Below, one piece after another: positions 1-15,739 of a DNA stretch of 64,000 nucleotides. The position numbers and the translations under genes are program-made. Origin of the DNA: Meridianimarinicoccus sp. MJW13 (GTDB lineage: Bacteria > Pseudomonadota > Alphaproteobacteria > Rhodobacterales > Rhodobacteraceae); contig NZ_JACNMU010000006.1 of NCBI RefSeq assembly GCF_014901205.1, forward strand, positions 248,001 to 312,000, read 5' to 3'. The notes under the pieces are model-generated. The model was not told where the DNA came from. It saw nothing but the letters and a program-made list of their open reading frames with translations, and made no database searches. Each line of letters opens with the position of its first letter. Positions within the stretch are counted from its first letter, which is position 1.

Positions 1-1284
1 ATGGTTGGACGCGGCACACGGCTTTGCACCGATTTGTTTGGCCCTGGAAAGGACAAGACCGTCTTCCGGATCTTCGACCACTGGGCTAACTTCAAACGCT
101 TCGAAGAGGGGTACAAACCTGCCGAGCCGACGGTTACAAAATCACTGCTCCAACAGCTTTTCGAGCAGCGCATCCAGCTTGCTGAAACGGCACTGCAGAA
201 AAGCGAGATTGCCGTCTTCGATCACGTGATCCAGTTGATCGCTGCCGACATCAATGCGCTCGATGAAAACACCGTCGCGGTGCGGGAGAAGTGGCGGGAG
301 AAGCGCTCGACTGCTTCGATTGAGAACCTGAAACGGTTCGATCCCGGGACAGTATCGGTGCTGCGCCAGACCATCGCCCCGCTGATGCAATGGCGCGATA
401 TCAGGGGCAAGGCCGAGGCGCATGCGTTCGATCTGCTTGTGTGCAAGGCTCAGATCGCGGTCCTGCATCAGTCTGCCGAAGTCACCGATCTCAAGATCGA
501 TTTCCTCGATCGTCTGGGCTCGCTCCAGATGCATCTCAACCCGGTCCGTGAGAAAGCCGAAATCATCAAAAAAGCAAAGTCGGATGCCTTCTGGAACGGC
601 GTGACCGTGATGGACCTTGAGGCCGTGCGCGAGCCGTTGCGCAGCATCATGATCTACCGCGACCGACAAAAGATTGGCGGCAACGGCCCCAAGATCGTCG
701 ACATCACTGAAGACACCGGTCTCGTGCAGTCCTCGCGGCGCAGCGCTTCGCTCAAGACCGTGGACATGGCTGCGTATGAGCAGCTCGTGGAAGCTGAACT
801 GAAAAAACACTTCGAGACCAATGCGACGTTGAAGAAAATCCGCGCAGGCGAGGCGGTCACGCCCGAGGACCTCAACGCAATCATCTCGCTGGTCTTGACC
901 CAGAACCCCGATGTCACCCGCAACGCGCTGGAAGAGTTTTTTGCGTCCACGACGCTGCCGCTCGACATCACCATCCGCAAGATGGTCGGGCTCGAAGAAC
1001 AGGCCGTGAAGGAAAAGTTCTCGGCTTTCGTGCTGGGCCATCCCGAACTGACCGCCAAGCAGACACGCTTCCTGGCGCTGCTGCAAAACCACATCATCAA
1101 ATTCGGTTTCATCACCATCGACCGCCTCTATGACCAGCCATTCACGGTTGTGGATGCCGATGGTCCCGAGGGCATTTTCGAAAAACCCGATGACATTGAC
1201 CAGTTGATGAAGATCGTCAATCTCTTCGCTCCGGCGCCCAAAGGCGATGACGGAGCCGATACATCCCAAGGAAAGCTACACTAA
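1..1284 (+). CDS. hsdR: Type I restriction enzyme, R subunit (3' part)
   Basis: This is the C-terminal 427 residues of the restriction subunit, which translocates DNA with ATP and cleaves it away from the recognition site. The frame is open from base 1. Its first residues (MVGRGTRLC, then LFGPGKDK and FRIFDHW) match the last helicase motif and following segment of HsdR, so the true start lies well upstream and the first ATG is internal. The nuclease and most helicase motifs are outside the window. The rest is the helical C-terminal part that contacts the methylase. The stop overlaps the start of hsdM by one base (TAATG), which indicates translational coupling. The family call is secure; activity cannot be judged from this fragment. 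Confidence 0.9.
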
Positions 1285-2804
1285 TGGTAACCGGCGAATT
1301 GAAAAAGAAGATCGATGCCCTCTGGACCGAGTTCTGGACCGGCGGCATCACCAATCCGCTGACGGTAATCGAGCAGATCACCTTCCTGATCTTCGTGCGC
1401 TTGCTCGACGTGAACGAAGCCCGCGACGAAAACCGCCTGAAGCGCAGCGGCGTGGAGTTCAAGCGCCGGTTCAATGCTGATGAACAGGAACTCCGCTGGT
1501 CGCAGTTCCGCCATCTGGGTGCCGACGAGATGCTGCCGCTGGTGCGCGACCGGGTCTTCCCGCATTTCCGCAAGGCATCCGTCGGCACCACCTTTGCCGA
1601 ATTCATGAAGGATGCGCAGCTGATGATCCAGAAGCCCAGCCTTCTGGTGAAGGCGGTCAACATGATCAACGACCTGCCGCTCACCGCTGGCGACACCAAG
1701 GGCGACCTCTACGAATATCTGCTCGGCAAGCTGACCACGGCAGGCATCAACGGACAGTTCCGGACACCGCGCCACATCATCCGCCTGATGGTGGACATGC
1801 TGGAGCCCAAGCCCACCGACGTGATTTCCGACCCGTCATGTGGAACCGGCGGCTTTCTGGTCGAGACGATGAACTATCTTCTCGAAAACCACACGTCGCC
1901 CGAAGCGGTGATGGAGGAAACGGATCCGGACACCGGCAAGACCGAGAAAACCTTCACCGGCGACCTGCTCGAAGATCATTGGACCCATATCCGCAACGAC
2001 ATGTTCCACGGCTTCGATTTCGACGCCACCATGCTGCGCATCGCGGCCATGAACATGATGCTGCACGGCGTCGACAATCCCGACATCCATTACCAAGACA
2101 CGCTGAGCAACAGCTTCCCGGAGAAATTCCCCAAATCATCAAGCGAAGGCTTTGACATTGTCCTCGCCAATCCGCCCTTCAAGGGATCGCTTGATTTCGA
2201 GGATGTGCATGCCGGGCTTCTGCGACAGGTGAAGACGAAGAAGACGGAACTGCTGTTTCTGGTGCTGATCCTGCGCATGCTGAAAACCGGCGGGCGCTCG
2301 GCCACCATCGTGCCCGATGGCGTGCTCTTCGGCTCGTCCACCGCCCATGTGGCGCTGCGCAAGCTGCTGGTCGATCACAACCAGCTGGAGGCGGTGATTT
2401 CGCTGCCCGCGGGTGTGTTCAAGCCCTATGCGGGTGTGTCCACCGGCATCCTCGTCTTCACCAAAGGCGGGCGCACCGATGATGTCTTCTTCTACGATGT
2501 GGAGGCGGACGGTTACTCGCTGGACGACAAGCGCGACCCGATCGAGGCCAATGACCTGCCCGATTGCATCACCGCTTGGCGGAACCGCGATCCGAAGCGC
2601 GACACGGACCGCAAGCAGAAGGCCTTCTTCGTTCCGGCCGATGACATCCGCGAGGCGAATTACGACCTCTCGCTCTCCAAGTACAAGGAGCGCGTCTACG
2701 CGGAACAAAAATACGACCCGCCGAAGCTCATCCTGAAGCGGATGAAGAGCTTGAATGACGACATCGCCAAGGACCTCGCCGAACTTGAGGGGATGTTGGG
2801 ATGA
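1284..2804 (+). CDS. hsdM: Type I restriction-modification, methylase M subunit
   Basis: This 506-residue N6-adenine methyltransferase subunit has the usual family length. An HsdM N-terminal helical domain precedes the catalytic domain. The SAM-binding motif [11 protein letters not shown], begins near residue 183, and the adenine-methylase motif IV, NPPF, is near residue 296. Both are intact, so the methylase should be active once HsdS provides specificity. It is coupled to hsdR upstream by a 1-base overlap and to hsdS downstream by an ATGA overlap. The R-M-S order is typical of type I loci carried on mobile islands. Confidence 0.96.
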
Positions 2805-3988
2805 CGACCCAAACCATTCCACTTGGCGATCTGGTCGAGATAAAAGGGGGCGGCACCCCTAGCCGGACTGTTTCAGAGTTCTGGAATGGGAATATTCCAT
2901 GGGCCACAGTCAAAGACTTCAAATCGACTGCACTCGACGCCACCGAAGAATCCATAACACTGGAAGGGCTTAAGCGCTCGGCAACAAACATCATTCCTTC
3001 CGGAAATGTTATCATCCCTACAAGGATGGCAGTCGGAAAAGCTGCAATCAATTCGGTCGATATGGCCATTAATCAGGATTTGAAGGCGCTGCTACCAAAG
3101 GGAAAAATCGACAAGCGGTTTTTGCTTCACTTCCTTCTCGCAAAGGGTGAATTCCTTGAAGGGCAAGCACAGGGTGCCACCGTCAAAGGCATCAAACTTG
3201 ACCTTCTGAGGACCTTGCCTTTTCCAGCGCTTCGCCTCGACGAACAACGCCGGATTGCGGTGATCCTCGACAAGGCCGATGCCATCCGCCGCAAACGCCA
3301 GCAGGCCCTCGCCCTCGCCGACGATTTTCTCAAATCGGTGTTTCTGGAGATGTTCGGTGATCCGATAATAAACCCACATGGTTTTGTGCGTGAAAAAGTC
3401 CGGTTACATCTGGATGGATCAAGAACCGGAATTCAATCAGGCCCGTTCGGAGCGGCACTAAAAAAACATGAGTATGTCGATGCTGGCGTGCCGGTGTGGG
3501 GCGTGGAAAACGTCCAGCACAACTTTTTTGTTGATGTGCCCAAGCTGTTTATCACGGATGAGAAATATCAGGAACTGCTTCGTTACAGTGTGAAATCCGG
3601 CGATGTACTGATTTCACGTGCTGGAACTGTTGGTCGTATGTGCATCGCAACGACTTCGCATCAGCGTTCAATAATCAGCACAAACCTCGTTCGAGTTGCA
3701 CTCAATCCGGATAGTTTGACATCTCATTATTTTGTGTCGCTGTTTACGTATTTGCCCGGACGTATCGGGGCACTAAAAGCAAACAACAAGGATGATGCAT
3801 TCACATTTTTGAATCCGAAGACACTGAGAGAACTAGAAATACCCATTCCAGACATGACGCGGCAAATTGAGTTTCTAAAGATCGCCCAGAAAACTAAACG
3901 CGCAATAGACATCCAGTCTCAACATGTCGATGGCTTAGATGACCTCTTTGCGGCCCTCTCACAGCGCGCTTTCCGGGGGGAGCTATGA
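2801..3988 (+). CDS. hsdS: Type I restriction-modification, specificity S subunit
   Basis: This 395-residue subunit determines which bipartite DNA sequence is recognised. It has two target-recognition domains. The first opens with [15 protein letters not shown] near residue 6. A conserved helical spacer follows ([17 protein letters not shown], then LFLEMFGDP-like residues to about 190). The second domain runs to about residue 350 and ends in a second spacer ([13 protein letters not shown], then [10 protein letters not shown]). The two domains are visibly richer in A/T than hsdM, as expected for exchangeable recognition modules. It overlaps hsdM by 4 bases and its own stop overlaps the next start by 4 bases. 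The recognition sequence cannot be read from the protein. Confidence 0.95.
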
Positions 3989-4914
3989 GTGATCTGAAAC
4001 TCTTCCGGATTGGTGGTACGGATGTCTGCGAGGTGCATGGCACGTCGCTTGCGCTGGAAAAATCGCTGCAGACGCTGATCGAGCAGAACCTGGAGACCTT
4101 TCTGGGTGTCCGCTTTCTGGCGTCGGAATTTTCCACCGGCCGCGACCATGGCGGGCGGATGGACACGCTTGGCATCGACGAGAATTCCTGCCCGGTGATC
4201 ATCGAATACAAGCGTTCCTCCAACATGAACGTCATCAATCAGGGCCTGTTCTATCTTGACTGGCTGGTGACCCATCGCGGCGATTTCGAGATGCTGGTCT
4301 TGAAGAAGTTCGGCGAGAAGGCCGCCCAATCCGTCGAGTGGTCATCGCCGCGCCTGATCTGCATCGCCGGCGACTTCTCCCGCTATGATGAGCACGCCAT
4401 CAAGCAGATGAACCGCAACATCGAACTTATCCGCTACATGAAATTCGACGACGACCTGCTGCTGCTGGAACAGGTAAACGCAGCCTCTGCTCCGCTGAAC
4501 GGCGTGATCGCGACGGATAAAGTTGATGGCGGCACGGACGGCGGGCAAAAGCAGAAATACACCACCGTCTCGCAATATCTCGACAAGGCGGACGGTGAGC
4601 TGCGCGCCCTCTTTGATACGGTGAAGGAGCACCTCGAAGGGTTGGGGGATGATGTACAGTTCAAGGTGCTGCGCTTCTATTTCGCGTTCAAGCGGATCAA
4701 GAATTTCGCCTGCGTCGAGATCAAGACCCAGGAGCGCAAGCTGATCGTCCACGTCAAGGTCGACCCCGACACCATCACGCTGGAAGACGGCTTTACCCGC
4801 GACGTGCGCACCATCGGCCATTTCGGCACCGGCGATTTGGAAATCACCATCCGCTCGATGGAAGATTTCGAGAAGGCCAAGCCGTTGTTCGAGCGCAGCT
4901 ATGAGAATGCGTGA
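3985..4914 (+). CDS. PD-(D/E)XK nuclease-like protein with DUF5655 domain
   Basis: This 309-residue protein is not a classical type I component. The N-terminal half looks like a PD-(D/E)XK nuclease: an early helix with a Glu-rich segment (TLIEQNLETFLG), then D60 in GRMDTLG and E74-x-K76 in VIIEYKRSS, the D...ExK spacing of this fold. The C-terminal part, from about residue 190, resembles DUF5655 (YLDKADGELRALF, then FYFAFKRIKNFACVEI). It shares a 4-base ATGA overlap with hsdS, so it is expressed with the restriction system. Nuclease activity is inferred from the motif. A DNA-binding or regulatory role is the alternative. Confidence 0.8.
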   Translation: MSDLKLFRIGGTDVCEVHGTSLALEKSLQTLIEQNLETFLGVRFLASEFSTGRDHGGRMDTLGIDENSCPVIIEYKRSSNMNVINQGLFYLDWLVTHRGDFEMLVLKKFGEKAAQSVEWSSPRLICIAGDFSRYDEHAIKQMNRNIELIRYMKFDDDLLLLEQVNAASAPLNGVIATDKVDGGTDGGQKQKYTTVSQYLDKADGELRALFDTVKEHLEGLGDDVQFKVLRFYFAFKRIKNFACVEIKTQERKLIVHVKVDPDTITLEDGFTRDVRTIGHFGTGDLEITIRSMEDFEKAKPLFERSYENA

Positions 4915-4923
4915 GGTGGGGTG

Positions 4924-5439
4924 ATGGCGGAACTCCACACTCTCACCCTGCCCGGCCCGATGCTGCAACGCGGGTTCTGGCTCTATGTCTGGCGGATCGA
5001 CACGCCGAAGGGTGAACGCCTGTATGTCGGGCGCACCGGGGATAACAGCAGCCCATACGCGACCGCGCCGTACACGCGGATGGGGCAACATCTGGGATTT
5101 CAGAAAGCATCCAACAGCCTTCGCCGCTTGCTTACCGAGCAGGGCATCAAACCGGAGCAATGCGGGCAATTCGATTTGGTCTCCTACGGGCCGATTTTCC
5201 CAGAGATCGGGAAGACCGAGGAGCAGGATCACGGTGAGCAGATGGAGCTGCACAAACCTGTTCGCGACCGGATGGCGGCACTGGAACGGGACCTGCGCGA
5301 CGCATTGTCCGATGCTGGCTATTCGGTTCTCAACGTGGTGCGCAGCAAAGCGAAATCCGATCCGGTCACATGGCGGGACGTTCTGGCGGCGTTTTCGGCA
5401 AACTTCCCGAAGCTGATTGAAGGGCGTGCAGATGGGTGA
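4924..5439 (+). CDS. Small GIY-YIG-like domain protein
   Basis: This 171-residue protein is not a named family I know. Near the N-terminus, WLYVWRI (about residues 19-25) followed by LYVGRTG (about 33-39) matches the two strands of a GIY-YIG nuclease, and acidic candidates for the metal ligand follow in EEQDHGEQMELHKP. The ATG at 4924 is preferred over the GTG at 4921 because a GAGG ribosome site sits 7 bases upstream of the ATG. It lies 9 bases after the DUF5655 gene and overlaps the next gene by 8 bases, within the same coupled operon. The domain call is moderate; the cellular role is unknown, presumably phage defence by context. Confidence 0.65.
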   Translation: MAELHTLTLPGPMLQRGFWLYVWRIDTPKGERLYVGRTGDNSSPYATAPYTRMGQHLGFQKASNSLRRLLTEQGIKPEQCGQFDLVSYGPIFPEIGKTEEQDHGEQMELHKPVRDRMAALERDLRDALSDAGYSVLNVVRSKAKSDPVTWRDVLAAFSANFPKLIEGRADG

Positions 5440-6409
5440 GCTCCTCCCTGAAGACCGCCAGATCTGGGTGCGCGCATTCTACGGCTTCAACCCGGAAGAC
5501 GCCGGTTATATTGGCTTCACGCACGAAGCTCAGCGTGAAGATATGCTGACCAAGATGAAGGACGGAGATCTTGTCCTCATCTACGGTGCCGTAGACTCTC
5601 TCACTGACGCCGATCTTCAGAGGCAAGCCCTTGGCTTCATGGAGGTCAAATTGGAGCGATGCCAAGATCTGGACCGGCAGACTGAGGAGTCGAGGAAATG
5701 GAAGCTAGATCATGGTTTTCAGGATCGGTGGACTTACGGCCTGAAGGTTGTCCGTGCATGGCGCGTCACAAACCGGGTTCACATCAAGACCATTGCGCCG
5801 ATAGCCTATGACAGCAAGAAGCGGTTTGAGAGAACGACCAAGGCTGTCCTGCTTGAGCCAGATGAAAAGCGCAGGGCGCTCAGCCACCATGTCCGGCAGG
5901 TGAACGTCTACGGTGAACCGCCCATCGCAACGGATGAACTCGACAGCGGCTATATGAATGACGTGCTCAAGCCGTCCAAGGGTATTCCTCCAAGTTTCGG
6001 GGACCGAACTTCCAAGCACGAAGACGGTGAGAACCACCTATACCTGATGAAATTGACAGCCAATGCGGAAGCACTGCTCGGCAGAACCGGCCCTCACCTC
6101 GGCCAGGCATTGGTGAAAATCGGCAGATCAAATGATCCAATCCGTCGGTTCAAAGAGGTCAACGGCGGGTTTCCCAAAAGCGCTGTTTGCCGATGGGAAC
6201 TAAAGTACCACCAACCGTTTGACGATGGGGCAACGACTCATAGTCATGAGACAGAATTGAAAGCGCGCTTTGCTGAGGAATTCACTTCACAGTCAGGAGA
6301 GTTCTACACTGGTGAATGGGACGCCATGGAACGGGTTTTCCAAACCTTTTGTTTTTCCAAGATGCCCAAAATTCTCGCCGCGGCTGCGAAGGCCAAGGGC
6401 GTGAAGTAA
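5432..6409 (+). CDS. PUA-like plus GIY-YIG (T5orf172/MUG113-like) protein
   Basis: This 325-residue protein has two recognisable parts. The first about 130 residues (VRAFYGF, GDLVLIYGAVDS, WTYGLKVVRAWRV) look like a small beta-barrel of the PUA/EVE kind, a fold often used to read modified bases. From about residue 202, HLYLMKLTAN, LVKIGRSNDPIRRF and a Glu-rich segment ending GEFYTGEW match the GIY-YIG variant in T5orf172/MUG113 proteins. The ATG at 5432 is chosen over an in-frame TTG at 5417 because GAAGGG lies about 8 bases upstream. A modified-base sensor joined to a nuclease would fit defence, but this is inference. Confidence 0.65.
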   Translation: MGELLPEDRQIWVRAFYGFNPEDAGYIGFTHEAQREDMLTKMKDGDLVLIYGAVDSLTDADLQRQALGFMEVKLERCQDLDRQTEESRKWKLDHGFQDRWTYGLKVVRAWRVTNRVHIKTIAPIAYDSKKRFERTTKAVLLEPDEKRRALSHHVRQVNVYGEPPIATDELDSGYMNDVLKPSKGIPPSFGDRTSKHEDGENHLYLMKLTANAEALLGRTGPHLGQALVKIGRSNDPIRRFKEVNGGFPKSAVCRWELKYHQPFDDGATTHSHETELKARFAEEFTSQSGEFYTGEWDAMERVFQTFCFSKMPKILAAAAKAKGVK

Positions 6410-6423
6410 GAAATGAGAATGTC

Positions 6424-8115
6424 ATGCGACTGAGCCGGATCGAAATCGAAAACTTCAAAGGTGTTGGTGCCAAGCAGGTCATTGAGCTACGGCCGATCAC
6501 GCTGTTGTTCGGCCCAAATAGCGCGGGCAAAAGCACGATCCTTCAGGCGTTGCACTATGTTCGCGAAATCCTAGAGAGGAAGAACCCCGATCCGGATCAA
6601 ACGATTGCGGGCGGCCTGATCGATCTCGGCGGTTTCAAGAAGCTGATCCATAACCATGATCTCTCGAATTCAATGACGATCAAGCTGGTCATCGATTTGT
6701 CCGGAGATCAGGGTAATGAACGGCTGCCAATCAATAACGGAAATTCGCTCGGTGATCCTGAGTTTGAAAGTCTGCGCATCCGCTACATCGTTGGCGAGAA
6801 CACCGATCTGAAGGAGTACGCTGTTGTCCAAGAGATCGGTGTCTCCCTACAGGTTCAATGGAGTGACTTGATCAACGCGCCTTATGTATCGGTCTTGATT
6901 GTCGAGATGGATGGCGAAAACATCGCCTCAATCAAGTCTCCACCGCAAGCTGGGCAGGCGCAGCTAACCGACTTCAACTTCCAGCATCCACTTTTGCAGG
7001 AGTATGTGGATGCAGACGACGAAGTGCCCGAAGGCCTTGCTGAAGGCGACCCACTCGGCACCAAATTGGGGATCGAGATTTGGGAACTATCAAGAGATAT
7101 GGCGAGATCAGCTGACTTGAAAGGTATCGGCGAATTTCGCATCGCCTCTTCATCCGTGATTGGCGCTCTGCCGGATATTACCAAGCCCTGGGCACTGGAA
7201 CTGCGCGATCCGGAACCAATGAAGCTGGAACTGGAAGGCAACACGCCGCGAGTGCGTGGCCTATCCTTATTGCTAGATGAATTACTTTTGGGACCTCTGC
7301 GCATTGCACGCGACTACCTTTCGGAGATGACCTACATTGGTCCGCTCCGGGACATCCCTCCAAGGGCTTTCCGACCCCAGGTTTCACCTGATGAGGGGCG
7401 TTGGGCACAGGGCCTGGCGGCATGGGATCTTCTCTATTCAGACAAGCAGGGCAGATTGCTTAGCGAAGTGAATGCCTGGCTGAGTGGTAGGGACGGTCTG
7501 GGAACGAGTTACGAGATCGCGAAGTCGGAGTATCTGGAAATACCGGTCTCAAGCCGGATCGATCAGTTGTTCAAACGCGGCATCAGCGAAGACGACATCG
7601 GAGAACTACAGGAAGAGTTCCAGAAGCTGGGATCGCGTACCGAGGTTGTTTTGCGTGACGTGGTGAAAGGCATTGATGTAGCCCCAAGCGATGTTGGTGT
7701 TGGCATCTCTCAGATGATCCCGGTCATCGTCGCTTGCCTTCGCGACAAGGATGGCATTCTGGCAATCGAGCAGCCCGAACTTCACGTACATCCGGCAATT
7801 CAGGTCGGGGTCGGCGACCTTTTCATTCATGCTGTAGTGCCCGGCGAGCAATCGTTCGGTTCAGGCAAAACCCTACTTGTCGAAACCCATAGCGAACACA
7901 TCATGCTGCGGCTCCTACGCAGAGTGCGGGAGACCACCGAAGGAGAACTCCCGCCAAGAAAAAATGCACTGAAACCCGATGATCTCTCTGTCATATACGT
8001 CGAAAATTCCGAAAAAGAAGTGCATTTTCGCCGCCTTCGCGTTGATAGAGACGGTGATTTCTCTGACCGGTGGCCAGATGGGTTCTTCGAAGAACGGGCG
8101 GAGGAACTGTTCTGA
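6424..8115 (+). CDS. AAA/ABC-type ATPase with DUF3696 C-terminus
   Basis: This 563-residue ATPase belongs to the SMC/RecF/OLD-like group used in many defence systems. It opens with RIEIENFKG and a Walker A motif GPNSAGKST at residues 30-38. The second ATPase half carries GVGISQMIPV, a Walker B-like segment EQPELHVHP near residue 448, and the switch region ETHSEHIMLRLLRR near 485. It ends with the DUF3696 hallmark (WPDGFFEERAEELF). No TOPRIM nuclease is present, unlike OLD proteins, so it needs a partner effector. The start at 6424 fits the conserved N-terminus; the frame is open upstream but only over the previous gene. Its stop overlaps the next start by one base. Confidence 0.88.
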   Translation: MRLSRIEIENFKGVGAKQVIELRPITLLFGPNSAGKSTILQALHYVREILERKNPDPDQTIAGGLIDLGGFKKLIHNHDLSNSMTIKLVIDLSGDQGNERLPINNGNSLGDPEFESLRIRYIVGENTDLKEYAVVQEIGVSLQVQWSDLINAPYVSVLIVEMDGENIASIKSPPQAGQAQLTDFNFQHPLLQEYVDADDEVPEGLAEGDPLGTKLGIEIWELSRDMARSADLKGIGEFRIASSSVIGALPDITKPWALELRDPEPMKLELEGNTPRVRGLSLLLDELLLGPLRIARDYLSEMTYIGPLRDIPPRAFRPQVSPDEGRWAQGLAAWDLLYSDKQGRLLSEVNAWLSGRDGLGTSYEIAKSEYLEIPVSSRIDQLFKRGISEDDIGELQEEFQKLGSRTEVVLRDVVKGIDVAPSDVGVGISQMIPVIVACLRDKDGILAIEQPELHVHPAIQVGVGDLFIHAVVPGEQSFGSGKTLLVETHSEHIMLRLLRRVRETTEGELPPRKNALKPDDLSVIYVENSEKEVHFRRLRVDRDGDFSDRWPDGFFEERAEELF

Positions 8116-9047
8116 TGCTGTCAGAATACGCGGTAGAGCCTGCTGCCATTGGCGCGGACTGGCGAACCTTTAAAGACCTGATCGACCGCTTCGGCGCGGA
8201 TAAAGGTCGACTGATTTCACGATTTCCAACAAAATGGGAGAGGAAAGTCATCCAAGCAGCAAAAGAGGCTGGCGTACCGGATATTCGTATGTCCAGCATC
8301 ACAGAACGTTTGCGCAACTCGAAGCATAAGGTCGTCGATTTCAATCGTGCCTATGACTACGAGGAAAACTGGATAAACAACACCCTATGCGAACACGCCG
8401 CCCGGCCGTTCAAAGCAATCATATGCGACGCTGGAAATACGGCCTGCGCAGAGTCAATGCATCCGGACGATTGCTCCGATGGACATGCGCTCTTTAGCGC
8501 AGCAACAAGCTGCAACGTGACAAGGACGGAAGACAAAATTGCCGACACCCTCAATACCTTTGCTGCGGTGTCGAGGGAGGTCGATATCATTGATCCTTAT
8601 TTCGATCTTCGACCAACCGAGGGCAATTATCTCGCCCCACTTGTAGCGCTGCTTGATCGACTCGGACGTGGGCCTTGGCCGCCAAAAGTCATCAAGATCC
8701 ATTTCCGAGAACATGGTTCGCGCCCCCCGCCTGAGCTCGTTGCTCGAGACGGTGCCGCCCAGATCAAAGGACGACTCCCATTAGGCTACAGCTTGGAGCT
8801 TTACGCGTGGTCGGAAAAAAAGGGCGGCGAAGACTTCCACGATCGCTTCGTTTTGACAGACTTGGGCGGGATCATGATTGGTGCGGGCTTATCTGCAGAT
8901 GGACCGGCTGAGTCCGCTGCATTCACACTCTTGGACTTCGAACACGCTCAGAATCTTCGTAACAGATTTGCAGACGGATCAACAGCCTACGCGCGCGCGG
9001 GATATGCTGTCCGATTCCATGACGACGGTAGCACCGAGTTATTCTGA
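8115..9047 (+). CDS. PLD-like putative effector partnered with DUF3696 ATPase
   Basis: This 310-residue protein is encoded in a one-base TGATG overlap with the ATPase gene. I do not recognise a named family. The second half resembles a phospholipase-D-like fold: DIIDPYF near residues 157-163 and HDRFVLTD starting at H242, followed by GGIMIGAGLS. A full HxKxxxxD signature is absent, so the catalytic residues, if any, are degenerate. The N-terminal 60 residues (SEYAVEP, GRLISRFPTKW) look like a separate interaction domain. The context suggests an effector gated by the ATPase. The alternative is a non-catalytic sensor. Confidence 0.6.
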   Translation: MLSEYAVEPAAIGADWRTFKDLIDRFGADKGRLISRFPTKWERKVIQAAKEAGVPDIRMSSITERLRNSKHKVVDFNRAYDYEENWINNTLCEHAARPFKAIICDAGNTACAESMHPDDCSDGHALFSAATSCNVTRTEDKIADTLNTFAAVSREVDIIDPYFDLRPTEGNYLAPLVALLDRLGRGPWPPKVIKIHFREHGSRPPPELVARDGAAQIKGRLPLGYSLELYAWSEKKGGEDFHDRFVLTDLGGIMIGAGLSADGPAESAAFTLLDFEHAQNLRNRFADGSTAYARAGYAVRFHDDGSTELF

Positions 9048-9347
9048 CGGTGAGAGTTCGATTATCTTCCATCTCGCGCAGCACAGGGAGAACGCTTTCG
9101 CCAGGGCAAGTGGCGGAGGAAAGCGGATTCGAAATGAGTGGTTGTTCAACCAAGACCAAAAGGCATCAAACGACGGTGGCACGCTCCAAGAACCAAATCC
9201 TATGGCCCAATTGCACTTTGACTGGCTGGTGATCTCAGCAATGCCCCTGCCTTTACGCGCCATGCCCCTACTACGCCTTCACAGCTGTTGCCCCTAGGCC
9301 AATAGCGGTCTTCTTGATCGGTCTCGTGATCCATCGCGAGGCCAACC
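9048..9347. other. Gap between defence operon and trb cluster
   Basis: No convincing gene is present in these 300 bases. The coding order usual for such elements would place a CopG-type regulator and the coupling protein gene traG before trbB, but neither is here. One plus-frame segment around 9200-9235 reads QLHFDWLV, slightly reminiscent of tyrosine recombinases, but it is too short to call. The base composition is lower in GC than trbB. The stretch may hold the trb promoter and a recombination scar. Confidence 0.4.
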
Positions 9348-10316
9348 ATGACCGTTACGTCTTTCAAAACCGAGACGTCTTCCCGCGGCGCACGCATGTT
9401 GCGCACGGCACTTGGGCCGGGCATCGCCGCCTGGCTCGAAGATACGGGCGTCGTCGAGGTGATGCTGAACCCTGACGGGCGGCTCTGGGTTGACCGGCTG
9501 GCCGATGGGCTGAGCGACACAGGCGCAGTGCTGTCTCCCGCCGATGGCGAGCGCATCATCCGTCTTGTCGCGCATCACGTCGGGGCGGAGGTCCATCCTG
9601 CGGCCCCGCGTGTTTCGGCTGAATTGCCGGACACGGGCGAGCGCTTCGAGGGTTTGCTGCCCCCAGTGGTTTCTGCACCCACATTTGCTATTCGCAAGCC
9701 CGCCGTCGCGGTGTTCACCCTCGAGGACTATGTCGCAAAGGGCATGCTCTCCTCAGATGCGGCTGCGCAGTTGCGCGAGGGGGTCACCAGCCGGGCCAAT
9801 ATTCTTGTCGCGGGCGGGACCTCCACCGGCAAGACGACCCTCACCAATGCGCTGTTGGCGGAGGTCGCCAAGACCGCAGACCGCGTTGTCCTGATCGAGG
9901 ACACGCGCGAACTGCAATGCCTGACCCCCAACCTCGTGGCTCTTCGCACCAAAGACGGGGTCGCGACCTTGTCCGATCTCGTGCGCGCGTCGCTGCGGCT
10001 GCGGCCTGATCGAATCCCCATCGGCGAGGTGCGCGGCCCGGAAGCGCTCGACCTGCTGAAAGCCTGGGGCACCGGCCATCCAGGCGGGATCGGGACGATC
10101 CATGCCGGGTCCGCCATTGGTGCTCTGCGGCGGCTCGAACAGCTGGTCCAGGAGGCGGTGGTCACCGTCCCACGCGCGCTAATCGCAGAAACCATCGACC
10201 TGATCGCCGTTCTGTCCGGACGGGGCGCTGATCGTCGCCTGTCCGAATTGGCGCGTGTCACCGGCCTGACCGCCTCGGGCGATTACGCTCTCACCCCCCT
10301 CTTCACACAAAAATAA
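9348..10316 (+). CDS. trbB: Conjugal transfer ATPase TrbB (VirB11 family)
   Basis: This 322-residue hexameric secretion ATPase drives pilus assembly and substrate transfer from the cytoplasmic face of the type IV secretion channel. The Walker A motif GGTSTGKTT is at residues 156-164; the Asp box VLIEDTREL and the Walker B/His box segment [13 protein letters not shown] follow in the expected order. The length is normal for TrbB. A GAGG ribosome site lies just upstream of the ATG. It is the first of eleven closely packed genes in the order usual for alphaproteobacterial trb clusters. Confidence 0.95.
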
Positions 10317-10327
10317 GGAAGCCATCC

Positions 10328-10654
10328 ATGACCCTTCTGCCATCATTTCGCACAGCCCTTGGCGCAACCGCGCTCGGCCTGATCGCTTTTACCCTGCCCG
10401 ATCCGGCGCTCGCCGCCGGATCGGGAATGCCGTGGGAAGCGCCCCTGCAATCCGTCCTCGAGTCGATCGAAGGTCCGGTCGCCAAGATCGTCGCCGTGAT
10501 CATCATCATCGTCACGGGCCTGACACTGGCCTTTGGCGACAGTTCAGGCGGCTTCCGGCGGCTTGTGCAGATCGTTTTCGGCCTTTCCATCGCCTTCGCG
10601 GCCTCGAGCTTCTTTCTGTCCTTCTTCTCCTTCGGCGGCGGAGCGCTGATCTGA
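10328..10654 (+). CDS. trbC: Conjugal transfer pilin TrbC (VirB2 family)
   Basis: This 108-residue protein is the predicted pilin of the mating pilus. It has a signal sequence (FTLPDPALAAGSG around residues 21-33) and two hydrophobic segments, the second being GLSIAFAASSFFLSFFSFGGGALI at the C-terminus (about residues 85-108), split by a short charged turn, which is the TrbC/VirB2 topology. It starts 11 bases after trbB and its stop overlaps trbD by one base. Maturation, possibly cyclisation as in RP4 TrbC, needs a peptidase that is not encoded here. Confidence 0.88.
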   Translation: MTLLPSFRTALGATALGLIAFTLPDPALAAGSGMPWEAPLQSVLESIEGPVAKIVAVIIIIVTGLTLAFGDSSGGFRRLVQIVFGLSIAFAASSFFLSFFSFGGGALI

Positions 10655-10923
10655 TGGAGAACCCCACCGACATTCCCGGCTATTTCGCGCCGGTGCACCG
10701 CGCCCTGATCGATCCGATCCTGCTGGCCGGTGCCCCCCGCACCATCGCCATTGCCAATGGGACTCTGGCCGCGGCCATCGGGCTTGGCCTGCGGCTCTGG
10801 CTCGTAGGCCTCGTGTTCTGGCTCGTCGGTCATCTCCTCGCGGTCTGGGCCGCGAAGCGGGATGCGCAGATCGCCGAGGTGGCGCGGCGGCATCTCCGTT
10901 ACCCCTCCTGGTTCGGGGTCTGA
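10654..10923 (+). CDS. trbD: Conjugal transfer protein TrbD (VirB3 family)
   Basis: This 89-residue inner-membrane protein has the short VirB3/TrbD form: a polar N-terminus (MENPTDIPGYFAPVHRAL) followed by two hydrophobic helices in tandem (about residues 27-60), then a basic tail. The ATG overlaps the trbC stop (TGATG). The start at 10654 is preferred because it matches the conserved N-terminus and gives the normal length. It is thought to work with the TrbE ATPase, whose gene follows directly. Confidence 0.85.
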   Translation: MENPTDIPGYFAPVHRALIDPILLAGAPRTIAIANGTLAAAIGLGLRLWLVGLVFWLVGHLLAVWAAKRDAQIAEVARRHLRYPSWFGV

Positions 10924-10927
10924 GCCG

Positions 10928-13408
10928 ATGATGCGTCTCGCCGAATACCGCTCCAAATCCGCCCTTCTGGCCGATTTTCTGCCCTGGGCTGCATTGGTCG
11001 CACCCGGCGTCATCCTGAACAAAGATGGCAGCCTGCAACGCACAGCGCGGTTTCGGGGGCCGGATCTGGATTCAGCCACGCCCGCCGAACTGGTCGCCAC
11101 GTCGGCCCGGCTGAACAGCGCCCTCCGGCGGCTTGGTTCTGGCTGGGCCGTCTTCATCGAGGCGCAGCGGATCCCGGCACAGGACTATCCGGCCTCCGAG
11201 TTCCCCGATCCTGTCTCCGCCCTCGTCGATGCCGAACGCCGCGCGCAGTTCGAAGAAGCGGGCGCTCATTTCGAGAGCGCGTATTTCCTGACGCTGATAT
11301 GGATGCCGCCCGCTGACGACGCGAGCCGCGCCGAGGGCTGGTTGCTAGAAAACGCACCGGATCGCAGCACCAAGCCTCAGGATCTTGTCTCCAGCTTTGT
11401 CAGCCGCGCCGACCGGCTGATCGATCTGCTTGACGGGTTCATGCCGGAAATCGCCTGGCTCTCCGATGCCGAGACCCTGACCTACCTGCATTCGACCGTT
11501 TCGACCCGGCGCCAGCGCGTCCGCGTCCCGGAGGTCCCGATGCATCTGGACGCGGTGCTGGCCGATGATCCGTTGGTGGGTGGGCTGACACCACGGCTCG
11601 GGGCCGCTCATCTCAAGACCCTGACCATCATCGGCCTGCCAAGCGCCACCTGGCCCGGTTTGCTCGACGAATTGAACGCTCAGGGTTTCGAGTATCGCTG
11701 GTGCACGCGCGCGATCTGCCTCGACAAGACGGATGCCGCCCGGGTGTTCACCCGTATCCGACGCCAGTGGTTCGCCAAGCGCAAGTCGGTGGCCGCGATC
11801 CTAAAGGAGGTGATGACCAACGAGGCCTCGACCCTGCTCGACAGCGACGCGGCCAACAAGGCGGCAGATGCCGATGAAGCGCTCCAAGAACTCGGCGCCG
11901 ATGTGGCGGGCGCCGCCTACGTCACCGCCACGATTACCGTCTGGGACGAGGACGCAGCAGCCGCCGAGGCCAAGCTCAAGGCCGTCGAGAAGATTGTCCA
12001 GGGGCGCGATTTCACCTGCATCCCGGAGACGTTGAACGCGCTCGAGGTCTGGCTCGGCTCCCTGCCCGGCCATCTCTACGCCAATGTCCGTCAGCCACCC
12101 ATCTCGACGCTGAACCTGGCCCATATGATCCCGATCTCGGCGGTCTGGGCGGGGCCGGACCAGAACGACCACCTCGACGGCCCGCCACTGTTCCACGCCG
12201 AAACCGACGGCACGACCCCGTTCCGCTTCTCCACACATGTGGGCGATGTCGGCCATACCTTGATCGTCGGCCCGACCGGGGCGGGCAAATCAGTCCTGCT
12301 GGCCCTCATGGCGCTGCAGTTCCGGCGCTATGCCGGTGCCCAGGTCTTCGCCTTCGATTTCGGCGGATCAATCCGCTGTGCCACGCTCGCCATGGGCGGC
12401 GATTGGGAAAACCTCGGCGATGCGCTGGCCGACGGAGATCCCGCGGTGCAGCTGCAGCCGCTCGCCGGGATCGATGAGGCGTCGGAACGCGCCTGGGCGC
12501 AGGACTGGCTCGCGGGAATCCTCGGACGGGAAGGCGCGACGATCGACCCTGCTGCGCGGGACCATCTCTGGTCGGCGCTGACCTCGCTCGCGTCGGCCCC
12601 GCCCCAGGAACGCACGCTGACCGGCCTCTCGGTCCTGCTGCAATCGACCGAATTAAAGCGCGCGTTGAAACCGTTCTGCATCGGAGGTCCCTTCGGACGG
12701 CTTCTCGATGCTGAAGCCGAAGACCTGGGCAGCGCCGAGGTGCTCGCGTTTGAAACGGAGGGGCTGATCGGCTCAGCAGCGGCACCCGCCGTGCTCGCCT
12801 ATCTCTTCCACCGGATCGAGGCGCGGCTCGACGGACGTCCCACCATGATCCTGATCGACGAGGGCTGGCTTGCGCTCGATGACGCCAATTTCGGCGGGCA
12901 GCTCCGCGAATGGCTGAAGACGCTGCGGAAGAAGAACGCCTGCGTTGTTTTCGCCACCCAATCGCTGGCCGATATCGACGGGTCCCTCATCGCGCCTGCC
13001 ATCGTCGAGAGCTGCCCGACGCGGATCTTCCTTCCCAACGAGCGTGCCTTCGAGCCCCAGATCGCCCGGATCTACCGGAACTTCGGGCTGAACGACCGCC
13101 AGATCGACATCGTCGCCCGCGCGACGCCGAAGCACGACTACTACTGCCAGTCGCGGCGTGGCAACCGGCTCTTCTCGCTGGGCCTCGGCGAGGTGGCGCT
13201 GGCCTTCACCGCCGCCTCCTCCAAGGCCGATCAGGCCACAATCAGCAATCTTATCGCCGACCATGGCCAGAACGGCTTTGCCGCCGCCTGGCTGCGCCAT
13301 CGCGGTCTCGACTGGGCAGTCGAGTTGCTTGGCCCCGCCACAGCGCCACCCGTTCCAGAACCCCAACCCACCGACCAGAAGGAGACAGAACATGACCCGC
13401 AATCCTGA
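10928..13408 (+). CDS. trbE: Conjugal transfer ATPase TrbE (VirB4 family)
   Basis: This 826-residue protein is the largest energiser of the type IV secretion machine. An N-terminal CagE/VirB4 domain (MMRLAEYRSKSALLADFLPW onward) precedes the ATPase domain. The Walker A motif GPTGAGKS is at residues 448-455 and the Walker B segment MILIDEGWLAL is near 640, followed by FATQSLADI. ATG codons at 10928 and 10931 are both possible starts. The gene lies 4 bases after trbD, and its 3' end overlaps trbJ by 17 bases. All motifs look intact. Confidence 0.95.
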   Translation: MMRLAEYRSKSALLADFLPWAALVAPGVILNKDGSLQRTARFRGPDLDSATPAELVATSARLNSALRRLGSGWAVFIEAQRIPAQDYPASEFPDPVSALVDAERRAQFEEAGAHFESAYFLTLIWMPPADDASRAEGWLLENAPDRSTKPQDLVSSFVSRADRLIDLLDGFMPEIAWLSDAETLTYLHSTVSTRRQRVRVPEVPMHLDAVLADDPLVGGLTPRLGAAHLKTLTIIGLPSATWPGLLDELNAQGFEYRWCTRAICLDKTDAARVFTRIRRQWFAKRKSVAAILKEVMTNEASTLLDSDAANKAADADEALQELGADVAGAAYVTATITVWDEDAAAAEAKLKAVEKIVQGRDFTCIPETLNALEVWLGSLPGHLYANVRQPPISTLNLAHMIPISAVWAGPDQNDHLDGPPLFHAETDGTTPFRFSTHVGDVGHTLIVGPTGAGKSVLLALMALQFRRYAGAQVFAFDFGGSIRCATLAMGGDWENLGDALADGDPAVQLQPLAGIDEASERAWAQDWLAGILGREGATIDPAARDHLWSALTSLASAPPQERTLTGLSVLLQSTELKRALKPFCIGGPFGRLLDAEAEDLGSAEVLAFETEGLIGSAAAPAVLAYLFHRIEARLDGRPTMILIDEGWLALDDANFGGQLREWLKTLRKKNACVVFATQSLADIDGSLIAPAIVESCPTRIFLPNERAFEPQIARIYRNFGLNDRQIDIVARATPKHDYYCQSRRGNRLFSLGLGEVALAFTAASSKADQATISNLIADHGQNGFAAAWLRHRGLDWAVELLGPATAPPVPEPQPTDQKETEHDPQS

Positions 13409-14174
13409 GCGCCCTGCTCGGCCCCGCAAACTCGCCGCCGTATTGATGGCCAGCGCCCTCGTAATGACACCGGTTCTCGCAACACCGGCCCAGGCCTTCC
13501 TCTTCGGCGGTGGCGGACGGATCGTCTACGACCCGCGCAACCATGCCGAAAACATCCTCTCGGCCGCCCGCGCGCTCGAACAGATCAACAACCAGATCGC
13601 GCAGATCCAGAACCAGGCGCAGATGCTGATGAACGACGCGCTGAACCTTGCAAACCTGCCGCATTCCTCGCTGGCGCAACTGCAGGACGCCATCGGTGAA
13701 ACCCAGCGACTCCTGGCCGATGCCCAAAGCCTCGCCTTCGACGTGGCGACCATCGAACAGGCCTTTGCTCAGGACTACGGAACTGCCGCAGCGCAAGGTG
13801 ATTTCGACGCGATGATCGCCGGAGCGCGCAAGCGGTGGGAGACCTCGGTCGCGGGCTTCGAGGACAGCTTGCGCGTGCAGGCCGGGGTAGTGGGCAATAT
13901 CGACGGAGCCCGCAGCCAGATGGACGCGCTCATCCGCGAAAGCCAGGGCGCCGTTGGGGCCCTGCAGGTGGCCCAAGCCGGGAACCAGCTCCTCGCATTG
14001 CAGTCGACGCAGATCGCCGATCTGACCGCCGCCATCGCCGCGCAGAACCGCGCCGAAGCGCTGGAAACCGCCCGCATCGCCTCCGCCGAGGCGCAGGGCC
14101 GCGAGAACCTCGCGCGGTTTCTGGATTACGGCGGCGGCTACTCCCCCGGCACAGTACGGCTGTTCGGGGAGTAA
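13392..14174 (+). CDS. trbJ: Conjugal transfer protein TrbJ (VirB5 family)
   Basis: This 260-residue periplasmic protein corresponds to the minor pilus-tip component TrbJ. A basic start and a hydrophobic core ending in LATPAQA give a clear signal peptide, with cleavage expected near residue 37. The mature part begins FLFGGGGRIVYDPRNHAEN, the usual TrbJ opening, and then forms long Gln/Ala-rich helices (QINNQIAQIQNQAQM). The start at 13392 lies inside the end of trbE and is preceded by GGAGAC. In related systems TrbJ is paired with TrbK. Confidence 0.9.
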   Translation: MTRNPERPARPRKLAAVLMASALVMTPVLATPAQAFLFGGGGRIVYDPRNHAENILSAARALEQINNQIAQIQNQAQMLMNDALNLANLPHSSLAQLQDAIGETQRLLADAQSLAFDVATIEQAFAQDYGTAAAQGDFDAMIAGARKRWETSVAGFEDSLRVQAGVVGNIDGARSQMDALIRESQGAVGALQVAQAGNQLLALQSTQIADLTAAIAAQNRAEALETARIASAEAQGRENLARFLDYGGGYSPGTVRLFGE

Positions 14175-14178
14175 GCGC

Positions 14179-14448
14179 ATGGCCCTCGACACCCCGCGAA
14201 CTCTGCGCCTTGTCGCCTTCGGTATCGGCGGCCTTGCCGCCCTCGCCGCCGCCGTCGAACTGACACGCACGGTCCTGCCCACCGACACCGGGCATGTGGT
14301 CAGGGATGACGCCTTGCGCAGCACCCTCGCGCATTGCCGTGACCTGACGCCCGAAGACTACGCCACCGACACCGAATGCCGCGCCGCCTGGGAGGCGGCC
14401 CGGCAGCGCTTCTTCGATCTGGCTCCAGAGCCGGCCGGGACGGAGTGA
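14179..14448 (+). CDS. trbK: TrbK-type entry-exclusion candidate
   Basis: This 89-residue protein has one N-terminal hydrophobic helix (about residues 9-30) and a small periplasmic domain with two cysteines, in AHCRDL and TECRAAW. The position between trbJ and trbL, the length and the paired-Cys pattern fit the alternative TrbK family, which is proposed to block redundant transfer between cells carrying the same element. It lacks the lipobox of RP4 TrbK. Sequence conservation in this family is low, so the call rests largely on synteny. Confidence 0.75.
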   Translation: MALDTPRTLRLVAFGIGGLAALAAAVELTRTVLPTDTGHVVRDDALRSTLAHCRDLTPEDYATDTECRAAWEAARQRFFDLAPEPAGTE

Positions 14449-14452
14449 GGGA

Positions 14453-15739
14453 ATGGGCGGCGTCAGTGTCATTGACCGGTTTCTCGAGGTCTTCGCCTCC
14501 TATATAGATTCCGGCTTCGGCCTTCTGGGTGGCGACGTCGCCTTCCTCGCCAACACGCTGATCGTCATCGACATCACGCTGGCCGCCCTCTTCTGGGCCT
14601 GGGGCGCGGATGACGACATCTTCGCCCGGCTGGTGAAAAAGACCCTCTTTGTCGGGGTCTTCGCCTATATCATCGGCAACTGGAACACGCTGGCCCGGAT
14701 CGTTTTCGACAGTTTCGCGGGCCTTGGCCTGGTCGCCACCGGCGGCACGATCTCCGCCGGTGAACTGCTTCAGCCGGGGCGCATCGCGCAGGTCGGGCTC
14801 GAGGCCGGGCAGCCGATCCTCGCCTCCATCGCCGACCTCTCCGGGTTCGTCGCCGTCTTCGAGAACTTCATCCAGATCGGGATCCTGTTCTTCGCCTGGC
14901 TGGTGGTCCTGCTGTCGTTCTTCATCCTCGCGATCCAGCTCTTTGTCACCCTGATCGAATTCAAGCTGGCCACGCTGGCGGGTTTCATCCTCGTGCCCTT
15001 CGGCCTCTTCAACAAGACCGCCTTCATGGCCGAACGCGTGCTGGGCCTCGTCATTTCCTCCGGCGTCAAGGTGCTGGTGCTGGCCGTGATCGTCGGCATC
15101 GGCTCCACCATCTTCAGCGAATTCACCGCCGGATTCGCGGGTGAACCCACGATCAACGACGCCATGTCGGTGGTCCTTGGCGCGCTGGCGCTCCTCGCTC
15201 TTGGCATCTTCGGACCGGGCATCGCCAATGGTATCGTCTCTGGCGGGCCGCAACTTGGCGCAGGGGCCGCTGTCAGCACCGGAATTGCCGTGGGCGGGTC
15301 TGCAGTCGCTGGTGTCGCCGGAACCCGGATGGCCCTTGGCACTGGCGGTGCCGCCCTGCGCGGTGCCAGCGCTGTCGGCAGCGGAACCGCCACTGCATAC
15401 CAGCTCGGCGCGGCCTCGCGCAGCACAGGCCTCGGAAAAACCGTCGGTGGCGCGGCCGCTGTTGGCAAGACCGGTGCTGTCGCCGCGTTCAGCCCGCTCC
15501 GGCGCGCGATCTCGGACGGCGCGCAGTCCGGCGCCCGCGCAGCCTATGCCGCCACCGGGGGACGGATGGCGGGTGGTGCCCCGCCCTCCCCGGCCAATGA
15601 CGGCCCACCCGACTGGGCGCGCCGGATGAAGCGCCAGCAATCCCTTCAACACGGCCTCTCGACCGCCGCCCACGTCATCCGCTCCGGCGATCATGGCGGC
15701 GGCGGCACGGTCGTCAGCCTCTCCGAAAGGTCCTCCTGA
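14453..15739 (+). CDS. trbL: Conjugal transfer channel protein TrbL (VirB6 family)
   Basis: This 428-residue polytopic inner-membrane protein forms part of the secretion channel. Several hydrophobic segments are visible between residues 20 and 270 (FLANTLIVIDITLAALFWAW, FFAWLVVLLSFFILAIQLF, LALLALGIFGPGIANGI). The last about 150 residues are rich in Gly and Ala and end in a basic cytoplasmic tail, as in other TrbL proteins. GAGGG lies just before the ATG, and the stop overlaps trbF by one base. Confidence 0.92.
   Translation: MGGVSVIDRFLEVFASYIDSGFGLLGGDVAFLANTLIVIDITLAALFWAWGADDDIFARLVKKTLFVGVFAYIIGNWNTLARIVFDSFAGLGLVATGGTISAGELLQPGRIAQVGLEAGQPILASIADLSGFVAVFENFIQIGILFFAWLVVLLSFFILAIQLFVTLIEFKLATLAGFILVPFGLFNKTAFMAERVLGLVISSGVKVLVLAVIVGIGSTIFSEFTAGFAGEPTINDAMSVVLGALALLALGIFGPGIANGIVSGGPQLGAGAAVSTGIAVGGSAVAGVAGTRMALGTGGAALRGASAVGSGTATAYQLGAASRSTGLGKTVGGAAAVGKTGAVAAFSPLRRAISDGAQSGARAAYAATGGRMAGGAPPSPANDGPPDWARRMKRQQSLQHGLSTAAHVIRSGDHGGGGTVVSLSERSS

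Follow-up and report, generated by a model that had tools for sequence, protein, structure and literature searches.

The first 9047 positions of the window (the whole 64,000-nucleotide stretch of DNA analysed here) carry an operon that very probably belongs to a composite frame with an internal slot: a regulator, then hsdR, hsdM and hsdS, the slot, an ATPase and a phospholipase D (PLD)-like protein. Judged by gene order among relatives, this frame is conserved, with a regulator of either the WYL or the CARF/RtcR-like type. The best explanation of the whole, to which we give somewhat better than even odds, is an echeloned defence operon on a conjugative element. Within such an element, the operon is flanked by the coupling-protein gene on one side and, downstream, by the trb genes.

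A reading-frame check of the window finds eight open reading frames at positions 1-9047, all on the + strand. With starts set by domain limits and relatives (g5 at 4924, g6 at 5432, the ATPase at 6424 and the PLD gene at 8115), the junctions are -1, -4, -4, +9, -8, +14 and -1 bases, and the eight-gene, same-strand set of the first-pass annotation is reproduced in every frame and junction value. hsdR is truncated at the window edge; the gene starts at L002:17668 and the complete protein has 1138 amino acids. Upstream of the window lies a WYL-domain regulator (L002:16817-17671; Pfam WYL, E 5e-8) whose gene overlaps hsdR by 4 bases, so the set comprises nine genes.

The restriction genes follow one another as the C-terminal part of hsdR (1-1284; PADLOC REase_I, E 2.7e-79, and Pfam EcoEI_R_C), hsdM, the N6-adenine methyltransferase of the type I system (1284-2804; Pfam N6_Mtase and HsdM_N, with an NPPF motif), and hsdS, the specificity subunit (2801-3988; Pfam Methylase_S in two stretches). 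Nuclease and helicase motifs are present in HsdR and its EcoEI-type C terminus is clear, as are the family assignments of hsdM and hsdS from profile matches. All three subunits of a type I restriction-modification system are present with frames and core motifs intact, and the enzyme would be expected to cut unmodified invading DNA.

The ATPase (6424-8115), a core gene of the frame, is of the ABC-type AAA kind with a C-terminal DUF3696 domain. Matches to AAA_15/AAA_21 and DUF3696 bear out its earlier naming as a DUF3696 ATPase; Walker A lies at residue 30 and Walker B (EQPE) at 449-452, and profile matches give it a RecF/Rad50-like head. Its neighbour, a PLD-like putative nuclease (8115-9047), has no family match in the family search and matches no PADLOC model. 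Against the PDB, the AlphaFold2 model (pLDDT 95.4) matches phospholipases D best, the top Foldseek match, 2ze4, reaching E 4.7e-5 and probability 1.00 but a TM of just 0.34 by query length. The predicted fold is thus that of the PLD superfamily, and the label first given to this protein stands. H242 and R244 are invariant in 53/53 relatives. The motif is therefore H-x-R, not the classical H-x-K of HxK(x)4D, with arginine in place of lysine in all 53, so that catalysis is assumed. Residues 1-42 are the most conserved part of the protein. Taken whole, it has a median identity of 0.38, and of the six proteins of the frame that were compared only HsdS varies more; the complete gene is swapped between close relatives.

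Three genes occupy the slot in the window. The first, g4 (3985-4914; PADLOC candidate PDC-S18), carries a DUF5655 domain and a D60...E74-x-K76 motif, in keeping with its earlier description as a PD-(D/E)XK/DUF5655 protein. The next two had both been called GIY-YIG-type proteins, a description that survives for one of them. The C terminus of g6 (5432-6409) gives a GIY-YIG-type (MUG113) match barely above the cut-off, and its N terminus is EVE-like, with a match barely below it; passages of PMC7641849 treat EVE/GIY-YIG fusions as predicted modification-dependent nucleases. For g5 (4924-5439; 171 amino acids, no family assigned), domain and family profile searches give no GIY-YIG family match, the predicted structure, with a model pLDDT of only 76, has no fold match at E <= 0.001, and a profile comparison with g6 yields no match; none of the three supports its assignment to GIY-YIG. 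A UDG match of g5 (E 0.003, below the cut-off) was put down to chance, and no weight was given to the succession of elements in its model (two strands, helix, strand, helix), although this would be compatible with GIY-YIG. The earlier statement that the operon combines three different nuclease folds is too strong, because no nuclease fold has been demonstrated for g5.

Class-wide profile searches with the PLD protein and with g5 each matched the source genome alone (1 of 385 genomes). The set is therefore rare, and co-occurrence was measured on contig loci selected by ATPase similarity: 80 loci, the best of 155, near copies included. Wherever sufficient upstream DNA was available, hsdS lay upstream of the ATPase in 69/75 loci, and the PLD-like gene adjoins the ATPase in 75/76. 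The slot between hsdS and the ATPase is empty in 40/71 loci, 21 of which have the two genes exactly 9 bases apart, and holds cargo in 25/71. On plasmids, the five records with the ATPase are the same five that have the PLD gene, and hsdS is directly upstream in three of the four inspected. Among other DUF3696 ATPases of the same class, a small control (n=9) in which the L135 and L136 ATPases follow large genes without assigned identity, none has an hsdS or PLD relative in the stretch read. Distances of HsdR and ATPase correlate (rho 0.55; 0/999 permutations as high), and divergence is correlated among hsdR, ATPase and PLD. At the head, a regulator relative upstream on the same strand is missing in 16/67 loci.

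The middle genes behave differently from this frame. One or more of g4, g5 and g6 is present in 9/71 hsdS-bearing loci, in six combinations besides that of the window and in differing orders; each is also found at restriction systems elsewhere that lack the ATPase-PLD pair, and the three middle genes of the window recur downstream of hsdS in further type I systems. Such a distribution is that of exchangeable cargo and not of core genes. For these three, variable presence and order together with their other contexts are what the first-pass annotation had named as the mark of separate systems piled up; its proposal of one composite system, for which it had suggested looking at conserved co-occurrence and order next to hsdS, holds for hsdS, ATPase and PLD, which keep their order and adjacency and have promoter signals at the head only. 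In relatives, outside L063, the cargo includes CBASS, TIR/short-Argonaute and GmrSD-like genes, some of them complete systems; a GmrSD_N (DUF262-type) protein fills the slot in L050. A GmrSD_N-related fragment was also seen upstream in L069, a locus without hsdS in the stretch covered.

The candidate promoter signals lie at the operon head, with none before hsdM or the ATPase. Scanning with a sigma-54 consensus fixed beforehand places a site between rtcR and hsdR in 16/20 loci and none before hsdM or the ATPase in the loci scanned; in L055 and L077, both without hsdRMS, the site lies between rtcR and the ATPase. A sigma-70-like site precedes the WYL gene in 16/23 loci, by a pattern defined after sequence inspection and with near copies (L031, L034, L082) and loci with <200 bases upstream excluded. 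Within positions 1-9500, the promoter scan gives 2 sites, below the shuffled mean of 4.5.

A near-identical element, L018, has an ATPase 98% identical to that of the window; its differences from the window lie mainly in the recognition regions of hsdS, in a single cargo gene and in the PLD gene. Identity breaks in hsdS at 2809-3233 and 3364-3941; at 5445 there is a 1032-base difference, where g5 and g6 of L018 are separated by a DUF4917 gene. Identity drops again at the ATPase/PLD boundary, and an exchange starting at PLD residue 42, where the blastn match ends, is rejected because identity has already fallen at that boundary.

In the echeloned operon as proposed, a regulator that senses a ligand would stand at the head, of the WYL type in the window and of the CARF/RtcR-like type in many relatives, and the layers would follow as complete type I restriction first, the exchangeable cargo slot second and the fixed ATPase-PLD pair last. 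The conserved frame, the variable slot, the intact catalytic motifs, the predicted PLD fold and the head promoter signals are the parts read from sequence. The cargo would add further specificities, in the window through g4 as a DNA nuclease and through g6, whose EVE domain with a GIY-YIG nuclease would probably be directed at modified DNA. The ATPase would bind the PLD protein through the conserved N-terminal 42 residues of the latter; on persistent infection it would activate or release the PLD protein, which would then serve as a backup or abortive effector by degrading nucleic acid. That the pair is such a backup effector has about an even chance. That it answers to one specific trigger, for example anti-restriction proteins, is doubtful.

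The reading can be extended, tentatively when all parts are taken jointly, to a self-assembling multilayer operon with a docking site between hsdS and the ATPase and a swappable nuclease in the pair. The boundary may take up CBASS, short Argonaute, GmrSD-like systems and nucleases under one infection-sensing promoter. The pair may be an undescribed effector in which the whole nuclease gene is swapped and the N-terminal dock kept. By analogy, PLD swapping may resemble the swaps of hsdS recognition domains, and may serve to escape phage inhibitors or alter recognition.

Among the rivals, the one that survives best, although we hold it to be rather less probable, is that the pair would guard the restriction enzyme: it would stay silent as long as the type I enzyme is active and be released when a phage anti-restriction protein blocks that enzyme, leading to cell death or arrest, by analogy with PrrC beside EcoprrI and PARIS facing Ocr. 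Passages of a review (PMC12707154) call PrrC and PARIS restriction guardians, the tight linkage to hsdS extends over two HsdR score groups that differ clearly, and the variability of the PLD protein would fit a part that faces phage proteins. Yet in L074 and L077 the stretch covered has the pair but no type I genes, in L055 the pair is near an MmeI-like gene, a search for PLD-HsdS allele association found PLD identity independent of HsdS identity (rho -0.10), and the partner is PLD-like, with neither an anticodon-nuclease nor a Toprim domain found. In all, hsdS is lacking from the stretch covered in 6/75 loci (L055, L069, L074, L077, L083, L093), as it is with the ATPase on a Deinococcus plasmid; the pair therefore has no obligate tie to type I restriction, and as a few loci carry it alone, the restriction enzyme is not strictly needed by it. 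The same loci weigh on a direct partnership, an unlikely alternative in which an SMC/Rad50-like ATPase and PLD would act on DNA translocated or cut by HsdR and degrade ends open to repair. The RecF/Rad50-like head, the PLD fold and the location behind restriction genes would suit it, but in L055 and L077, which lack hsdRMS, an RtcR-like regulator and the same promoter type precede the pair, and the different HsdR groups that accompany the same pair argue against a specific contact with HsdR. Mere accumulation, in which separate defence systems would have gathered on a mobile element without acting together, formally fits g4, g5 and g6 and is improbable for the whole, given the constancy of hsdS and PLD around the ATPase, the exact 9-base spacing, the correlated divergence of hsdR, ATPase and PLD and the promoter signals confined to the head.

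Should the echeloned reading be true, such type I loci, which occur in several phyla, would be more than restriction systems, having a constant second effector and a slot inside for other defences. The region between hsdS and this ATPase would then be a place to inspect for defence genes, restriction loci would deserve testing as complete operons, and the swapping of a nuclease gene beside an unchanged partner ATPase would be a natural experiment.

The closest published layout is that of the CoCoNuT superoperons, which, in passages of PMC11090510, combine an RtcR-like CARF regulator with type I RM and for which the authors suggest an echeloned response. The likeness lies in an RtcR-like regulator first, type I RM next and further defence genes behind, all in one direction; by those passages, however, CoCoNuTs end in a McrB-type GTPase system, whereas here an AAA/DUF3696 ATPase and a PLD-like protein stand last, the window has a WYL regulator, and cargo lies between hsdS and the pair. 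None of the eight genes has a McrB-type GTPase Pfam match, and trb genes follow downstream. PrrC with EcoprrI, an ATPase-containing effector within a restriction locus, and PARIS (AriA/AriB), one that watches restriction, are alike in that respect in the passages of PMC12707154, but the present effector is a separate PLD-like protein with no anticodon nuclease or Toprim. The location within a type I RM operon agrees with a PrrC-type system; the ATPase protein has AAA-type and DUF3696 domains alone, and no anticodon nuclease was found in it. PARIS, Gabija and Septu are defined by Toprim, UvrD or HNH as the partner of the ATPase, and are rejected since the partner here has a predicted PLD fold. 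MADS is likewise rejected, with HsdM, ATPase and HsdS scoring far below the curated cut-offs of MAD2 (138.5 vs 720 bits), MAD3 (31 vs 420) and MAD5 (60.8 vs 400).

PADLOC scores the ATPase at 142.6 bits for NsnB, which we take to be a Menshen protein, 148 for PDC-M55A, the only PDC-M55 subunit model among the matches listed, and 102.6 for HEC-03B. Menshen is given in passages of PMC10952713 as DUF262 with a predicted OLD nuclease; unlike that system (NsnABC), the window has no DUF262 (GmrSD_N) match among its eight proteins, and the ATPase partner is PLD-like. RtcR-like sigma-54 activators linked to R-M systems are already published (PMC4012209), and the regulator type is the same, while the passages concerned do not describe the ATPase-PLD pair or the cargo slot. 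A literature search that covered few subscription journals returned no paper combining DUF3696 and restriction. Defence genes inside the operon of another system are familiar from the Hma-embedded candidates of PADLOC and the restriction-linked ORFs of Campylobacter; there the host operon is a different one and, as described, the embedded genes alone are at issue. HEC model names also appear among the PADLOC matches.

The operon at 1–9047 on the forward strand is genuine and conserved, a composite whose central part varies. Its genes are hsdR, hsdM and hsdS, three middle genes (g4, a DUF5655 protein of PD-(D/E)XK type; g5, a 171-aa protein; g6, an EVE-like N terminus joined to a GIY-YIG-type (MUG113) C terminus), an AAA ATPase with a C-terminal DUF3696 domain, and a PLD-like gene. 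Reading frames re-derived from the window sequence bear out the eight frames and seven junctions of the first-pass annotation. Once the upstream DNA is added, the full HsdR is 1138 aa long and the upstream WYL-domain regulator overlaps the hsdR start by 4 bases; the core motifs sought in HsdR, HsdM, g4, the ATPase and the PLD protein are all present. The regulator is preceded by genes for a T4SS coupling protein and for a DUF3363 protein taken as a relaxase (12453–16222 of the upstream DNA, L002), and the operon is followed by a trb set at 9348–18595: a T2SSE-type ATPase in the trbB position, TrbC, a TraG/TrbE-type ATPase, TrbL, VirB8, CagX and TrbI. With conjugation genes on both flanks, the operon therefore lies inside the transfer module of a mobile element. 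The only tRNA that turned up in the window is a tRNA-Gln (ttg) gene on the reverse strand, at 48484–48558.

Within the family, four of 149 genomes carry the ATPase, the window's own genome included. Two of the three others, each read over 20 kb, carry WYL-hsdR-hsdM-hsdS-ATPase with nothing in the slot between hsdS and the ATPase; the PLD gene comes next in one and the contig end in the other. A genome-contig scan with a three-sequence ATPase alignment gave 155 relatives. The best 80 of the 155 were analysed (L018–L097), and their hosts include Alpha-, Gamma- and Deltaproteobacteria, Planctomycetota, Verrucomicrobiota and Calditrichales. Some of these loci are redundant: L028 nearly duplicates L082, L033 does the same with L034 except in hsdS, and L034 and L040 are taken as the two family genomes already read. 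The earlier proposal of one composite system stands for the frame of regulator, hsdRMS, ATPase and PLD, but not for the three middle genes, whose presence and order vary. Among these best 80, 75 loci extend at least 1.5 kb upstream, and 69 of them have an hsdS relative there on the same strand (the exceptions being L055, L069 with 1.8 kb upstream, L074, L077, L083 and L093); so do two of the five that reach less far. A PLD-like gene adjoins the ATPase in 75 of the 76 loci that run 900 bases or more downstream, the sole exception being L071, where the ATPase frame stops early. All three hsd genes are present in 61 of the 67 loci with 7.5 kb upstream. In 31 of 72 measured pairs PLD starts at the final base of the ATPase stop codon; in 18 further pairs the called start lies 45 bases inside the ATPase, and 15 of these also have an ATG at the stop position.

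On plasmids, the ATPase occurs in five of 72,556 records and the PLD gene in the identical five, two of which come from a single species. In the four of these that were read, hsdS stands immediately upstream in Methylocella, Azotobacter and Vibrio, and not in Deinococcus. Nine further DUF3696 ATPases, drawn from 142 class genomes, served as a control: none has an hsdS or PLD relative in the stretches read, and two of them (L135, L136) follow large genes. At L031:3018–12498, in Marinicella sp. W31, the WYL, hsdR and hsdM genes are fragmented while the ATPase keeps an intact frame, so that a restriction part in decay stands next to a retained ATPase.

At least one middle gene occurs in nine of 71 hsdS-bearing loci, as g4-g5-DUF4917-g6 (L018, the near-identical element of Paracoccus sp. 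R12_2), g4-DUF4917-g6 (L043), g5-g4-g6 (L022, L026), g5-g4-DUF4917 (L064), g5 alone (L019, L027, L030) or g4 alone (L036). Outside the frame, g4 is found in nine of 385 class genomes, its own included. Of the eight others seven were read: g4 stands immediately 3′ of hsdS in one (L112), a weak g4 relative is the third gene after hsdS in another (L116), and in the remaining five g4 is not directly preceded by an hsdS relative. The g6 gene, in five of 148 family genomes including its own, lies 0.8 kb behind hsdS in L118, near MmeI-like genes in L117 and L120, and in neither setting in L119. Plasmid records number 37 for g4 (one opened, hsdM-hsdS-g4-hsdR), two for g5 (one hsdM-hsdS-g5-hsdR, the other beside a DNA methyltransferase gene) and two for g6 (one opened, with an M48 peptidase gene between it and the upstream hsdS). 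These variable contexts show that the middle genes are able to ride behind hsdS, yet are bound neither to the ATPase-PLD pair nor to a fixed order. The window's g6 resembles the EVE/GIY-YIG fusions that PMC7641849 treats as predicted modification-dependent nucleases.

The hsdS-ATPase gap is below 60 bases in 40 of the 71 loci (exactly 9 bases in 21 of these empty slots), 60–500 in six and larger in 25, reaching 6.7 kb. Family searches covered 18 slot proteins from nine of the 25 filled loci; protein clustering linked further loci to these and was the sole basis for L042 and L091, and the cargoes given here leave out L063. Patatin, CD-NTase and HNH genes in L065 together make up CBASS, and L053 has TIR plus short Argonaute, with the same clusters in L092. 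Further cargoes are DUF4917/PDC-S21 (L018; same cluster in L043, L064), GmrSD_N plus Schlafen AlbA_2 (L050), a dGTPase-like protein (L057), DitA (L084), patatin with a metallo-beta-lactamase-type and a ThiF/JAB protein (L049), and a helicase plus a PD-(D/E)XK protein (L060). The two-gene PADLOC cargo PDC-M61A/B, found by family search in L068 and as the same clusters in L073, L076, L078 and L080, recurs in these five gammaproteobacterial loci, enough to merit its own study. Some of the cargoes listed look like complete defence systems. A further ATPase-like frame between hsdR and hsdM at L091:3976–5805 (20 bits against the window ATPase) is perhaps a second cargo position.

The same-strand upstream regulator is of WYL type in 27 of 67 loci, RtcR-like in 24 and neither in 16, some of which have rtcR downstream or on the opposite strand. 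Where rtcR precedes hsdR, a sigma-54 −24/−12 site (at most 2 mismatches) lies in between in 16 of 20 loci (not in L039, L046, L070 or L087), and none lies before hsdM or the ATPase in these 20. L055 and L077, both without hsdRMS, have such a site in the stretch from rtcR to the ATPase, with 0 and 1 mismatches; L083 has a 2-mismatch site before the ATPase, but it is equalled in 10 of 200 shuffles. A TTGA[CT]-N16-19-TATA site, a pattern picked after the sequences were inspected, precedes the WYL gene in 16 of 23 loci, the window included (shuffled mean 0.07), and never hsdM or the ATPase. A connection between RtcR-like regulators and R-M systems is already published, as is the possibility that RNA ending in a 2′,3′-cyclic phosphate is the ligand (PMC4012209, PMC11090510). 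The Roseovarius set at L039:3880–12810 has an RtcR-like regulator, whereas most alphaproteobacterial relatives have WYL.

From the regulator through into the trb genes, L018 matches the window at 92–97%. The two part company within the recognition regions of hsdS (2809–3233, 3364–3941), at 5445, where L018 has an extra 1032-base stretch with the DUF4917 gene, and over the PLD gene; the match resumes at 9245. In 40-base steps, identity is 0.93–1.00 up to 8099, 0.78 at 8100–8139 and 0.25–0.65 beyond; the exchange therefore begins at the ATPase/PLD boundary. Identity likewise drops there between L027 and L030, and about 200 bases earlier between L032 and L033. Among 28 WYL-type or related sets, 16 pairs have ATPase identity of at least 0.85, and in eight of them PLD identity is below 0.40; the compared pairs share members and are not independent. 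In those eight, the first 42 PLD residues are 0.55–0.74 identical and the remainder 0.27–0.34 (all pairs, medians 0.69 and 0.33). The PLD nuclease gene thus appears to be exchanged as a whole, and contact with the ATPase is probably made by its first 42 residues, which are conserved from one exchanged allele to the next. Median identities in 24 complete sets are 0.80 for HsdM, 0.71 for HsdR, 0.61 for the ATPase, 0.55 for WYL, 0.38 for PLD and 0.25 for HsdS. In these sets HsdR identity correlates with that of the ATPase (rho 0.55) and PLD (rho 0.37), and HsdS identity with none of the five other proteins (PLD rho −0.10).

The closest systems in print are the echeloned RtcR/type I RM/CoCoNuT superoperons and restriction guardians; no description of the ATPase-PLD pair or the slot was found in the literature searched, of which coverage was partial. 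The ATP-binding part of the ATPase resembles OLD, Rad50 and SMC heads. The PLD protein has no PADLOC model match at E ≤ 0.01 and none among PDB chains better than E 0.15. Its AlphaFold2 model, built on 53 sequences (pLDDT 95.4), best matches Streptomyces phospholipases D in the PDB (E 4.7e-5, TM 0.34 by query length), with the restriction enzyme SauUSI at rank 20; W86, H242 and R244 are invariant in 53/53. No restriction genes accompany the pair in the stretches read of L074 and L077, and it is therefore taken as a putative effector complete in itself that usually operates alongside type I restriction. At L055:5328–12683, a gene we take from its sequence to be MmeI-like, an RtcR-like regulator, the ATPase and PLD stand in a row, the pair here lying beside a different type of restriction enzyme.
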